Under the pieces are notes generated by a model. It had not been told where the DNA came from, did no database searches, and saw only the letters and a program-made list of their open reading frames with translations. A program made the translations under genes and the position numbers. From Acidihalobacter sp. (lineage in GTDB: Bacteria > Pseudomonadota > Gammaproteobacteria > DSM-5130 > Acidihalobacteraceae), in NCBI GenBank assembly GCA_027013225.1, contig JALUXU010000022.1, positions 1 to 64,000 on the forward strand: a stretch of DNA of 64,000 bases, read 5' to 3'. The first letter of the stretch is position 1; each line of letters starts with the position of its first letter. This document shows, one piece after another, positions 38,429 to 42,092 of the stretch.

Positions 38429-39682
38429 CTAACCATACCTCTCAAGAGTTAAACCCTCCATATCGATAGCTGGGGCCTTGGCTGAAACGATATCAGCCAG
38501 CACACGTGCAGAGCCGCAACTCAATGTCCATCCGAGGGTGCCATGGCCTGTATTGAGATACAAATTCTGGTATGGCGTAGAGCCGATAATGGGTGGACCA
38601 TCCGGGGTCATAGGACGAAATCCGCACCACCAGTCTATATTGGAGTAATCAGCCGCATTAGGGAACAATTCCTGTACGGCACGGGCTACCACCTGATAAT
38701 TTTTGGGTTGCAGCGAGAGATCGAATCCTGTGAACTCTGCAATTCCTGCCGCTCTAAGCTTACTACCCAGACGCGTAATGGCAACCTTGCGATTCTCATC
38801 CATAAGAGTGGATTTTGGTGCTTGGGATGCATCCACGATAGGTGCCGTCATGGAATAACCTTTGACCGGATAAATGGGGATATCCATCCCAAGCGGTCTT
38901 AACAAATCGGACGAGTAACTTCCTGCCGCAATTACATAAGCATCCGCTTCAATTGCTCCTTGCTCGGTTTCAAAAGCAGTGATGCGACCATTTTTTTTCG
39001 CCAATCGCTCGACTGTGATTCCAAAGTTGAATGAAACGCCTTCTTCGGCCGCTAGCTCCGAAAGTCTTTGTGTAAACAACTGGCAATTTCCAGATTCGTC
39101 TCCAGGGAAATATATGCCGCCCACAAAAACATCTCTGCCAGCGTCAAGACCAGGTTCGACTTTTAGACAACCCTCCAAATCAAGTCGTTCAGCCGGGATC
39201 CCATTGGCCGCATAGATTTCAAGCTCACGGTCCACATGATCAAGATCTTTTTTCTCACGTATGATTTCGAGTAGTCCGCCCGGACCTCGTTCATAATCAA
39301 AATCCATCAGTTGACGAATTTCAGACAGCATTTGATAACTATATAGCCCCAACCTTAATAGTATCGATTTGTTTTTTTTGTAGGTTGCCGGAGCGGCGTT
39401 TACAAGCATCCTGATCAAAAATCGCCACATCCTATAATCGGCCTGGAAATGAAGCCGCAAGGGAGAATTCGGATCAAACTGCCAACTGATGAGCTTGCCT
39501 ATTACTCCTGGTGAAGCCCAAGGAGTGGCATAACCCCAGGATACCTGCCCACCATTGGCGTAACTCGTTTCGAGCGCTGGACCGGGCTCTCTTTCCACCA
39601 CAATGACATCGTGACCCGCCCGCATAAGATACCAGGCGCTTGTGACGCCGACCACGCCAGCGCCAAGGATTGCAACTTTCAT
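38429..39682 (-). CDS. dadA: D-amino acid dehydrogenase small subunit
   Basis: FAD-dependent membrane-associated enzyme that oxidises D-amino acids (mainly D-alanine) to keto acids and ammonia. The 417-residue protein begins MKVAILGAGVVGVTSAWYLM (dinucleotide-binding fold) and has the DadA motifs YANGGQVSWGYATPWASPG and NTGHGTLGWTLSCGSARVLAD. The usual partner dadX (alanine racemase) is absent. An ISL3-type element ends about 70 bases upstream of its start and may affect its expression. Confidence 0.92.
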   Translation of the reverse strand: MKVAILGAGVVGVTSAWYLMRAGHDVIVVEREPGPALETSYANGGQVSWGYATPWASPGVIGKLISWQFDPNSPLRLHFQADYRMWRFLIRMLVNAAPATYKKNKSILLRLGLYSYQMLSEIRQLMDFDYERGPGGLLEIIREKKDLDHVDRELEIYAANGIPAERLDLEGCLKVEPGLDAGRDVFVGGIYFPGDESGNCQLFTQRLSELAAEEGVSFNFGITVERLAKKNGRITAFETEQGAIEADAYVIAAGSYSSDLLRPLGMDIPIYPVKGYSMTAPIVDASQAPKSTLMDENRKVAITRLGSKLRAAGIAEFTGFDLSLQPKNYQVVARAVQELFPNAADYSNIDWWCGFRPMTPDGPPIIGSTPYQNLYLNTGHGTLGWTLSCGSARVLADIVSAKAPAIDMEGLTLERYG

Positions 39683-39762
39683 AATTGATCTCGAATGGTT
39701 GCAGAAATAATATTAGTGAATGACAAGCTAAAACCACTTTAGTAAAAAAGGTCTTCCCCCGA

Positions 39763-40929
39763 TCAGGTGGGTAAACCCTGCTGACTAACCCCGGCCGGGT
39801 AGAGATCCAGCCCACCGAGGTGGAAGTAAATCGCATTGCGGAAGCGTTCCTTGTTGCGGAAGCCCCGGCTGCGCACTTTGATCATCTTGATTCGGCTGTT
39901 GATACTTTCCGCGCCGCCATTGTCGGCCTTGAGCACCACGGCATTGATGATGCCCCACAGGTGGGCCTTGATCGTTCGGGCGACTTTCTTCACAGGCCCC
40001 AGCCGGCTTCGGGTCACCCAGGCCAGCCAGCGTTGCCAGCCTTTCTCCGTCCAGGTGCGGCGGCTGTAGTGCCACAGGCTCATGCCGAACTCCTTGATGG
40101 CCCAGGCCCGTGCGGTCTTCAGTGTGCTTTCCCGTAGCGCCTTGAATCCGCGCCACTGCTGGCGACTCATGTTCTGCGGGTTCATCAGCCAGCGGTGTTT
40201 GATCCGTGTCAGGTCCTCCCGACCCTCCGCCCGTAACGCGCGGTGCTCGGCGCGGCGCACCTTGTCCACGGCCTTACCGAGGTACTTGACCACATGGAAC
40301 TTGTCGAAGGCGATCTTCGTGCGCGCGTCCGGTACGGCATCCAGGGTCGCCCGGATATAGGCCGGCCACATGTCCATGGCGATACTCTCGATGCCCCCTT
40401 TCTGGGCTTCGGAGAGCGTGTCGTAATAGCCCCCCAAGCTCTCCAGGCTGCGGTCATCTGCCACATGCAGTACCGTGCCGTTGTCCTGATCCGAGACCAC
40501 CGTGACATAGTCATGGCGTTTACGGAACGCGGTTTCATCGACCCCGATACGGGTTGGCGAAACGGCCTCGCGCCACGCCAGGCCGCGCTGCACCGCCCAC
40601 TGCATGATCCCGTCGATGGCGTTCCAGCTCAGCCCCAGCCGCCGCGACACCGCTGCCACCGAGGCCTCTCGTAGCCAGTCGATCACCAGCGCCTCGAACA
40701 ATGCCGCCGTCTCCAGCACAGCCGCGAACTTGTCTACCGAGTTCCATCCCGCCGGCGTTGCGCCCCCATCTGGCAGAAGACGCCCCTCTGCCCGGGCCCC
40801 CTTGCGCCAGTTGTACAGGGTCGCCTCGCTGATCCCTTCCTCCCGGGCGATCTCTTTGATCGTCTTGTTCGCAGGCGGCAGCATCTTCTTCAGAACCGCT
40901 TCTTTTCGTTCAGGTGAATAACGCATCAT
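39763..40929 (-). CDS. Chimeric transposase: IS3-type OrfA N-terminus fused to ISL3 catalytic domain
   Basis: A 388-residue open frame. Residues 1-75 (MMRYSPERKEAVLKKMLPP, helix-turn-helix EIAREEGISEATLYNWRKGA, KFAAVLETA) look like the OrfA DNA-binding subunit of an IS3/IS2-type element. From residue 76 (ALFEALVIDWLREASVAAVS) it is an ISL3-family transposase with the DDE positions preserved (IGVDETAFRKR, AMDMWPAYI, NGGAESINSRIK). The normal ISL3 N-terminal zinc finger is missing here but survives as a separate fragment upstream. The fusion is in frame with no stops. Whether the chimera is expressed or active is unknown. Confidence 0.8.
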   Translation of the reverse strand: MMRYSPERKEAVLKKMLPPANKTIKEIAREEGISEATLYNWRKGARAEGRLLPDGGATPAGWNSVDKFAAVLETAALFEALVIDWLREASVAAVSRRLGLSWNAIDGIMQWAVQRGLAWREAVSPTRIGVDETAFRKRHDYVTVVSDQDNGTVLHVADDRSLESLGGYYDTLSEAQKGGIESIAMDMWPAYIRATLDAVPDARTKIAFDKFHVVKYLGKAVDKVRRAEHRALRAEGREDLTRIKHRWLMNPQNMSRQQWRGFKALRESTLKTARAWAIKEFGMSLWHYSRRTWTEKGWQRWLAWVTRSRLGPVKKVARTIKAHLWGIINAVVLKADNGGAESINSRIKMIKVRSRGFRNKERFRNAIYFHLGGLDLYPAGVSQQGLPT

Positions 40930-40994
40930 GCCTCTCTCTTGCCCCCTCGGGATCCCCCTTAGAATCCCAAACTTCTGACGGGGCTTCTATCATG

Positions 40995-41152
40995 ACAGAG
41001 GGGGCCCACACTTCGGACAGCACTGCTCACCGCCGGGCTGCCGTGCAACGTGCAACCTTGACCTCGCCCGCATCCACCGACAACTCAACATCGGTCACCT
41101 GCCAGTGCGTACGAATACCCAGGATCTGGGTGTATAGCTCTTTGTCTCTCAT
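40995..41152 (-). pseudogene. ISL3 transposase N-terminal fragment
   Basis: MRDKELYTQILGIRTHWQVT followed by DVELSVDAGEVKVA is the start of an ISL3 transposase. The frame stops at about 41030, but a zinc-finger piece CCPKCG continues in another frame to about 40995, where IS3-like sequence takes over. It is the missing N-terminus of the transposase at 39763-40929. Confidence 0.75.
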
Positions 41153-41255
41153 GCCCCGTACGGTAATCCACCCACTCGATTCGGGAAGAGCCAGCAAATA
41201 AACTAATACATTTATTCAATAAAAACATACACCTTTTAAAAAAAAGACATCTTAT

Positions 41256-42092
41256 TCAACCGAAACGTCCGGTAATATAATCTTCTGTTTGTTTGCTTTC
41301 TGGATTGGTAAATAAAATATTTGTTTCGTTGAATTCGATCAGCTTTCCCAAATACATAAAAGCCGTGTAATCAGATACGCGAGCGGCTTGTTGCATATTG
41401 TGAGTTACTATCACGATAGTGTAATCGCTTTTAAGCTCATAAATAAGCTCTTCAATTTTCAAGGTGGAAATTGGATCTAGAGCAGAGGCCGGTTCGTCCA
41501 GGAGGAGCACCTCCGGCTTTACCGCCACCCCCCTGGCTATACAGAGCCGTTGCTGCTGACCACCCGACAATTGCATGCCGCTTTGCCGCAATTTATCTTT
41601 AACTTCATCCCATAGAGCTGCCTTCCGCAATGCCCATTCTACCCGTTCATCCATTTGCGATTTTGAAAGGTGCTCATACAATTTCACACCAAAGGCGATA
41701 TTGTCATAGATAGACATTGGAAAAGGGGTCGGCTTTTGAAAGACCATGCCAACACGAGCCCTCAATAAATTTAGATCCTCTTTTGGGCTCAGAATATTAC
41801 GACCATCTAAAATAATTTCTCCGGTTGCCTTTTGATCTGGATAAAGGTTATAAATCCTGTTGAAGGTTCGCAGCAGAGTTGACTTCCCGCATCCTGAAGG
41901 CCCGATAAATGCAGTAACCTTGCGATCCGATATCTGCATATTAATGTTATGCAAGGCATGATACTTACCATAAAAGAAATCCATGCCTTTAACTTCTATT
42001 TTAGGGTTTGGTACATTGGATATACCCGCAACAAACATTTCATATGTTTCATCATGCACCTTATCGGTTGTATTTGAGATCTGTCCGCTCAT
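41256..42092 (-). CDS. pstB: Phosphate ABC transporter ATPase PstB, orphan
   Basis: A 278-residue ATPase of the high-affinity phosphate importer. Walker [18 protein letters not shown], the PstB-specific [20 protein letters not shown], signature [14 protein letters not shown], Walker [14 protein letters not shown] and switch [21 protein letters not shown] are all present. No pstS, pstC, pstA or phoU lies nearby; the expected phoU position is taken by the ISL3 element. The gene is AT-rich compared with most of the window. The leader contains a 15-base symmetric site. Confidence 0.93.

Follow-up and report, generated by a model that had tools for sequence, protein, structure and literature searches.

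Does a reading frame that carries the DNA-binding head of one transposase family on the catalytic body of another encode a working chimera, or is it an accidental product of decay? The question is raised by a locus in a 64,000-nucleotide stretch of an Acidihalobacter sp. genome assembly (the window). An initial annotation, made from the letters of this DNA alone, had recognized there an uninterrupted 388-codon frame joining about 75 residues of an IS3/IS2 OrfA helix-turn-helix to the catalytic region of an ISL3 transposase. With a probability of roughly 0.8, the locus is a decayed nested insertion sequence: an IS3 element would have inserted into the tnpA gene of an ISL3 element, and a short-homology deletion would have left an accidental in-frame fusion, most likely inactive. 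The features of the locus are listed in Table 1.

Table 1. Features of the fused transposase locus (window coordinates)
Feature	Coordinates	Strand	Basis
ISL3-type insertion sequence, whole, between terminal repeats GGCTCTTCCC... at 41192 and GGTCTTCCCCC... at 39750	39750..41192	-	Repeats and DNA match to L033
ISL3 left end with what remains of the tnpA start (41152-41005): some 49 codons reaching the first Cys pair (CCPKCG), one extra base, stop at 41029-41027	41005..41192	-	Alignment and translation against L033, L015, L107 and others
IS3-type left end (CCCCCTCTGTCATGATAG...) and orfA leader	40930..41004	-	Motif in relatives; first base placed to within a few bases
Fused open reading frame, 388 codons plus stop	39763..40929	-	ORF translation
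IS3-type OrfA head, 75 residues with helix-turn-helix	40705..40929	-	Pfam HTH_Tnp_1; 68% identity to L155 OrfA, residues 1-88
Fusion junction, several bases and the frame common to IS3 and ISL3 relatives	40698..40713	-	Sequences of both sets of relatives
ISL3 body: HTH_Tnp_ISL3 profile 15-47 of 51 and complete DDE_Tnp_ISL3	39763..40704	-	Pfam against intact L033

Domain composition of the fused frame

The single open frame and its two-family make-up were borne out by translation and by profile searches. Counted from stop to stop, the frame spans 407 codons. Its first part matches the Pfam profile HTH_Tnp_1, the helix-turn-helix of IS3 family OrfA (residues 3-53, 43.6 bits against a cut-off of 24.1), and residues 128-367 match the catalytic domain of the ISL3 family, DDE_Tnp_ISL3, over the whole profile (positions 1-240 of 240, 228.2 bits). 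Between the two lies a match to HTH_Tnp_ISL3 (residues 77-109) that covers only profile positions 15-47 of 51. The NCBIfam model for the whole ISL3 protein (NF033550) gives 238.6 bits, above its cut-off of 180, despite a match limited to profile positions 74-370. Neither Zn_ribbon_ISL3, the zinc ribbon of ISL3, nor rve, found in IS3 OrfB, has a Pfam match in the fused protein, and the element leaves no room for an OrfB, the remainder of its length being ISL3 sequence. The assignment to IS2 was not upheld: the one OrfB tested scored 23 bits with the IS2 TnpB model, for which the cut-off is 597.

The intact transposase of the relative L033 has 416 residues, with Zn_ribbon_ISL3 at 43-86, a complete HTH_Tnp_ISL3 at 91-141 (profile positions 1-51) and the DDE domain at 156-395. 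The zinc ribbon is present in this protein and in the plasmid copy L197, but absent in the fusion. The window element thus shares the catalytic body and the terminal repeats with the ISL3 family (NF033550, PF01610), but it is without the zinc ribbon, its HTH_Tnp_ISL3 match is shortened, its N-terminus is an IS3-type OrfA piece, and the original start frame is shifted. With the IS3 family (OrfA, PF01527; NF033516) it shares the left end, the leader and the first 75 OrfA residues, but not the rest of OrfA, OrfB (rve) or the right end.

The ISL3 element and its genomic site

The initial annotation had drawn the element too small, as the ISL3 terminal inverted repeats lie outside the extent given there. 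Their common pattern, GGNTCTTCCC, occurs at both ends of the window element and also at both ends of L033, L038 and L125. Identity to L033 at the DNA level is 82% over 39750-40706 and 79% over 41005-41193.

The element is flanked by pstB (41256-42092) on one side and by a dadA-like gene (38429-39682) on the other, both named from a reading of their translations, without a family search. In G002 and G003, which belong to the same family as the window genome, matches to the two genes lie 101 and 129 bases apart, respectively, without the element. The element is therefore read by us as an insertion into a short pstB/dadA-like gap, the empty site resting on these two more distant relatives. In G001, the one genome of the same genus that was searched, about 83 kb separate the same two genes, and in G005 a match was obtained for pstB alone. 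The target duplication of the ISL3 family is 8 bp. The flanks of the window element agree at 4 of 8 bases, or at 6 of 8 with the right end shifted by one base, which makes no convincing duplication. A gap of 67 bases (39683-39749) separates the element from the start of the dadA-like gene, whose expression it may alter.

A nested IS3-type left end

The ISL3 zinc finger had been described as surviving out of frame just upstream. This holds for the part up to the first Cys pair, which is kept behind a frameshift, but the rest of the zinc ribbon is gone. Compared with L033, the frame that opens at the ISL3 start codon (41152) has gained one base, and it ends at a TGA. The piece encoding CCPKCG shares its frame with the fusion, from which it is separated by two stops in the IS3 leader. 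Similarity to ISL3 breaks off at 41005, immediately behind the first Cys pair. From the point matching 41005 to that matching 40706, L033 carries about 160 bp, most of its zinc ribbon, that are missing from the window element, and IS3 sequence occupies their place.

This IS3-type sequence starts at about 41004, inside the zinc-ribbon coding region and directly against ISL3 sequence (41004/41005). Judged by eye, the left-end motif is found at the same distance and clearly in 9 of 15 relatives (L155, L156, L017, L016, L181, L006, L157, L160 and L182); it is partial in L178 and L027 and absent from L159, L179, L180 and L020. Enough downstream sequence for an inverted-repeat test was available in 8 of 11 relatives. 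In L181, 19 of 24 bases of the motif recur as an inverted repeat 1.5 kb downstream from where OrfA starts, against at most 17 in 20 shuffles; L179 has an inverted repeat of 18 of 24 bases (best of shuffles 16), and the other six testable relatives were at chance.

The OrfA start in the window is at 40929, and the closest OrfA found is that of L155. The OrfA relatives belong to IS3 elements: with the NCBIfam IS3 model (NF033516, cut-off 160), the L179 OrfB, which has the rve core, scores 209.5 bits, and the single-frame OrfAB of L158 scores 213 bits. The OrfB reading frame of L155 itself is short and scores 38.2 bits, under the cut-off. In the window everything after OrfA codon 75 (the rest of OrfA, OrfB and the right end) is missing, and no IS3 right end or other IS3 remnant was seen within the element.

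The junction and the proposed history

Alignment to both families placed the join at fused residues 75-78 (approximately 40703-40698), in agreement with the position near 40704 that had been proposed. In MAFFT alignments the OrfA heads did not line up with the fused head; one of these alignments included a row (L126) on a strand that reads as junk. At approximately 40713-40691 the window reads GAGACGGCGGCATTGTTCGAGGC, where IS3 relatives resemble L155, GAGAGCGCGGCGATGAACGAGGC, and ISL3 relatives resemble L033, TTTACGGCCTTGTTCGAGGC. In protein terms, the IS3 relatives mostly have E-(S/T)-A-x-(L/M)-x-E-A at the join and the ISL3 relatives F-T-A-(L/M)-F-E-A. Because several bases, and also the frame, are common to both families at this point, a deletion here would keep the frame. 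With the two elements in matched orientation, about one in three deletions between two coding stretches would be expected to keep the frame.

We propose that an ISL3-type insertion sequence came to lie between pstB and the dadA-like gene, and that an IS3-type element would then have inserted, in the same orientation, into the zinc-ribbon part of its transposase gene. A later deletion at the short shared sequence would have removed the rest of the IS3 element together with about 160 bp of ISL3, by chance leaving OrfA codon 75 and the ISL3 body in one common frame. Having lost the zinc ribbon and some of the ISL3 HTH match, the product would probably be unable to bind ISL3 ends, which would leave the element most likely inactive.

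The 5' IS3 piece could instead have been brought in alone by a direct illegitimate join (template switch or capture), without a prior full IS3 insertion. The shared bases at the junction and the lack of any IS3 right end or other remnant within the element fit such an event, and because no right end was seen, insertion followed by deletion is indistinguishable from a single join of this kind. However, the IS3 piece begins at approximately its natural left terminus, as a real insertion would give, and we consider a direct join unlikely.

Constraint on the ISL3 body

The closest ISL3 body found, among the best 80 of 178 relatives, is that of L033 (a Halomonas MAG), with 81% amino-acid identity over residues 76-388. 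When the changes since the split from L033 were assigned with outgroups, the window branch received 13 amino-acid changes and that of L033 received 14, with 31 unassigned; synonymous changes number 33 and 29, respectively (19 unassigned). The dN/dS is 0.18. Conserved columns were derived from 74 distinct sequences, found at 86 loci whose matches span 271 residues or more; shorter matches were dropped. The window keeps 38 of the 39 body columns conserved at 90% or more, residue 294 being the one that departs. Among the columns kept are the VDE, DMW and AESINS stretches, which we take to hold the catalytic residues, and the claim that these are intact agrees with this result.

A body without excess decay fits a recent fusion and also continued function. 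Most of its change probably predates the fusion, and for this reason the branch changes and the conserved columns neither prove decay nor show function. Coding constraint cannot separate the time before the fusion from the time after it because there is only one fused copy.

A working chimera or a remnant

The fused frame is present in one copy in its own genome assembly, where several would mark a functional chimera. Eight of the nine PF01610 matches in this assembly, those other than the window, are partial, and no other full-length match is present. Since the zinc ribbon is lost, the fusion is single-copy and the assembly has no further PF01610 match of full length, an inactive remnant is most likely. 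Together with the nested IS3 left end, the short shared sequence at the join and the lack of a second fusion among the matches examined, the single copy and the loss of most of the zinc ribbon support the accidental fusion that the initial annotation had offered as one of two readings.

Its other reading was a functional domain-swapped transposase, in which the IS3-type helix-turn-helix replaces the zinc ribbon and targets the ISL3 catalytic domain to ends that are new or of IS3 type. The positive evidence for it consists of the unbroken frame with a helix-turn-helix and a complete DDE profile, the conserved body columns, amino-acid changes that are not in excess on the window branch, and the retention of the IS3-type leader and of both ISL3 terminal repeats. 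Against it stand the single copy, the lack of a second fusion among the matches examined, the lack of a visible IS3 right end, and the loss of the zinc ribbon with the shortening of the ISL3 HTH match. Residues 111 and 119, moreover, are tryptophan in the window but arginine in 63 and 59, respectively, of the 74 relatives. No sigma-70-type promoter match was found in 40800-41300 (a weak point, 0.4 being expected by chance). A domain swap of this kind is improbable. Even less credence is due to the specific version in which the fused protein would be made from the IS3 leader, bind an IS3-type end via the swapped helix-turn-helix and move DNA with the ISL3 catalytic domain. If the fused protein did work, end recognition by transposases would be swappable between families in nature.

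Misassembly of two different elements, conceivable in a draft genome of 73 contigs with several ISL3 pieces, is highly improbable, since the few shared bases at the join were judged too short to mislead an assembler and no near-identical piece occurs elsewhere in the genome, where the other eight DNA matches are 72-87% identical over 45-213 bases.

As a decayed nested element, the locus would illustrate how nested insertion sequences and a deletion can give rise to an open frame that scores above the NCBIfam ISL3 cut-off despite the loss of the zinc ribbon. Automatic annotation would probably call such a fusion intact for this reason.

Three further loci of the same genome were noted. L006 (C30:59953-60122), the only other head match in the genome, is a truncated piece of this IS3 type, with the left end and an OrfA that breaks off at about 32 residues. 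L003 (C69:59953-60583) is another ISL3 remnant, about 630 bp long, in which both ends are retained; it is 72-80% identical to the window element and is without the stretch matching 39946-40614. L118 (448-1863 on C57) has a 471-residue frame with an ISL3-domain match, one of the eight partial PF01610 matches; by eye it reads like a fatty-acid desaturase, and the match resembles the NCBIfam DesA/ISL3 tail domain.

Searches for other fusions

Other copies of the fused frame, the absence of which had been named in advance, together with a lack of expression, as a ground for refutation, were not found as far as the searches reached. Matches were obtained in 13 of 185 genomes by DNA, in 104 of 369 genomes of the class by protein, and in 28 of 398 genomes of the phylum with a 130-residue query of the head and join; the three samples overlap and each includes the genome of the window. 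Among the matches listed from these 185, 369 and 398 genomes, the only join of head and body is that of the window. Head matches end by residue 123 or, by DNA, 22 bases past the join (L017), and the other listed matches are to the body or ISL3 ends, from about residue 69 onwards, or fall within the ISL3 left end.

In genome contigs, none of the best 80 of 178 relatives is a fusion, and none of their matches starts before residue 73. No fusion was present among the 30 plasmid records listed of 3833, which start at residue 77, except two at 51. The plasmid hit ranked best, K. pneumoniae H1, matches residues 51-376, a span shared by H2; H1 proved to be a normal ISL3 transposase that has its zinc ribbon. 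The 10 phage records listed of 41 contained no fusion, and no record covers 80% of the query. A single locus was found in viral contigs; it starts at residue 77 and is not a fusion. A degenerate junction pattern gave two matches in viral contigs, both unrelated sequence by eye. No such fusion appeared in the titles of the literature searched, which carries little weight.

Four head matches, which extend far or belong to long frames, were inspected. By family score, G298 is an IS3 transposase encoded in a single frame; inspection by eye identifies G075 and G363 as IS3 genes and G539 as a divergent IS3 OrfA. The G539 locus (L200, 1145-2425) has an in-frame join of its own, in which, by eye, a broken IS3-type OrfB piece runs into OrfA; chance fusions of transposase pieces therefore occur elsewhere too.
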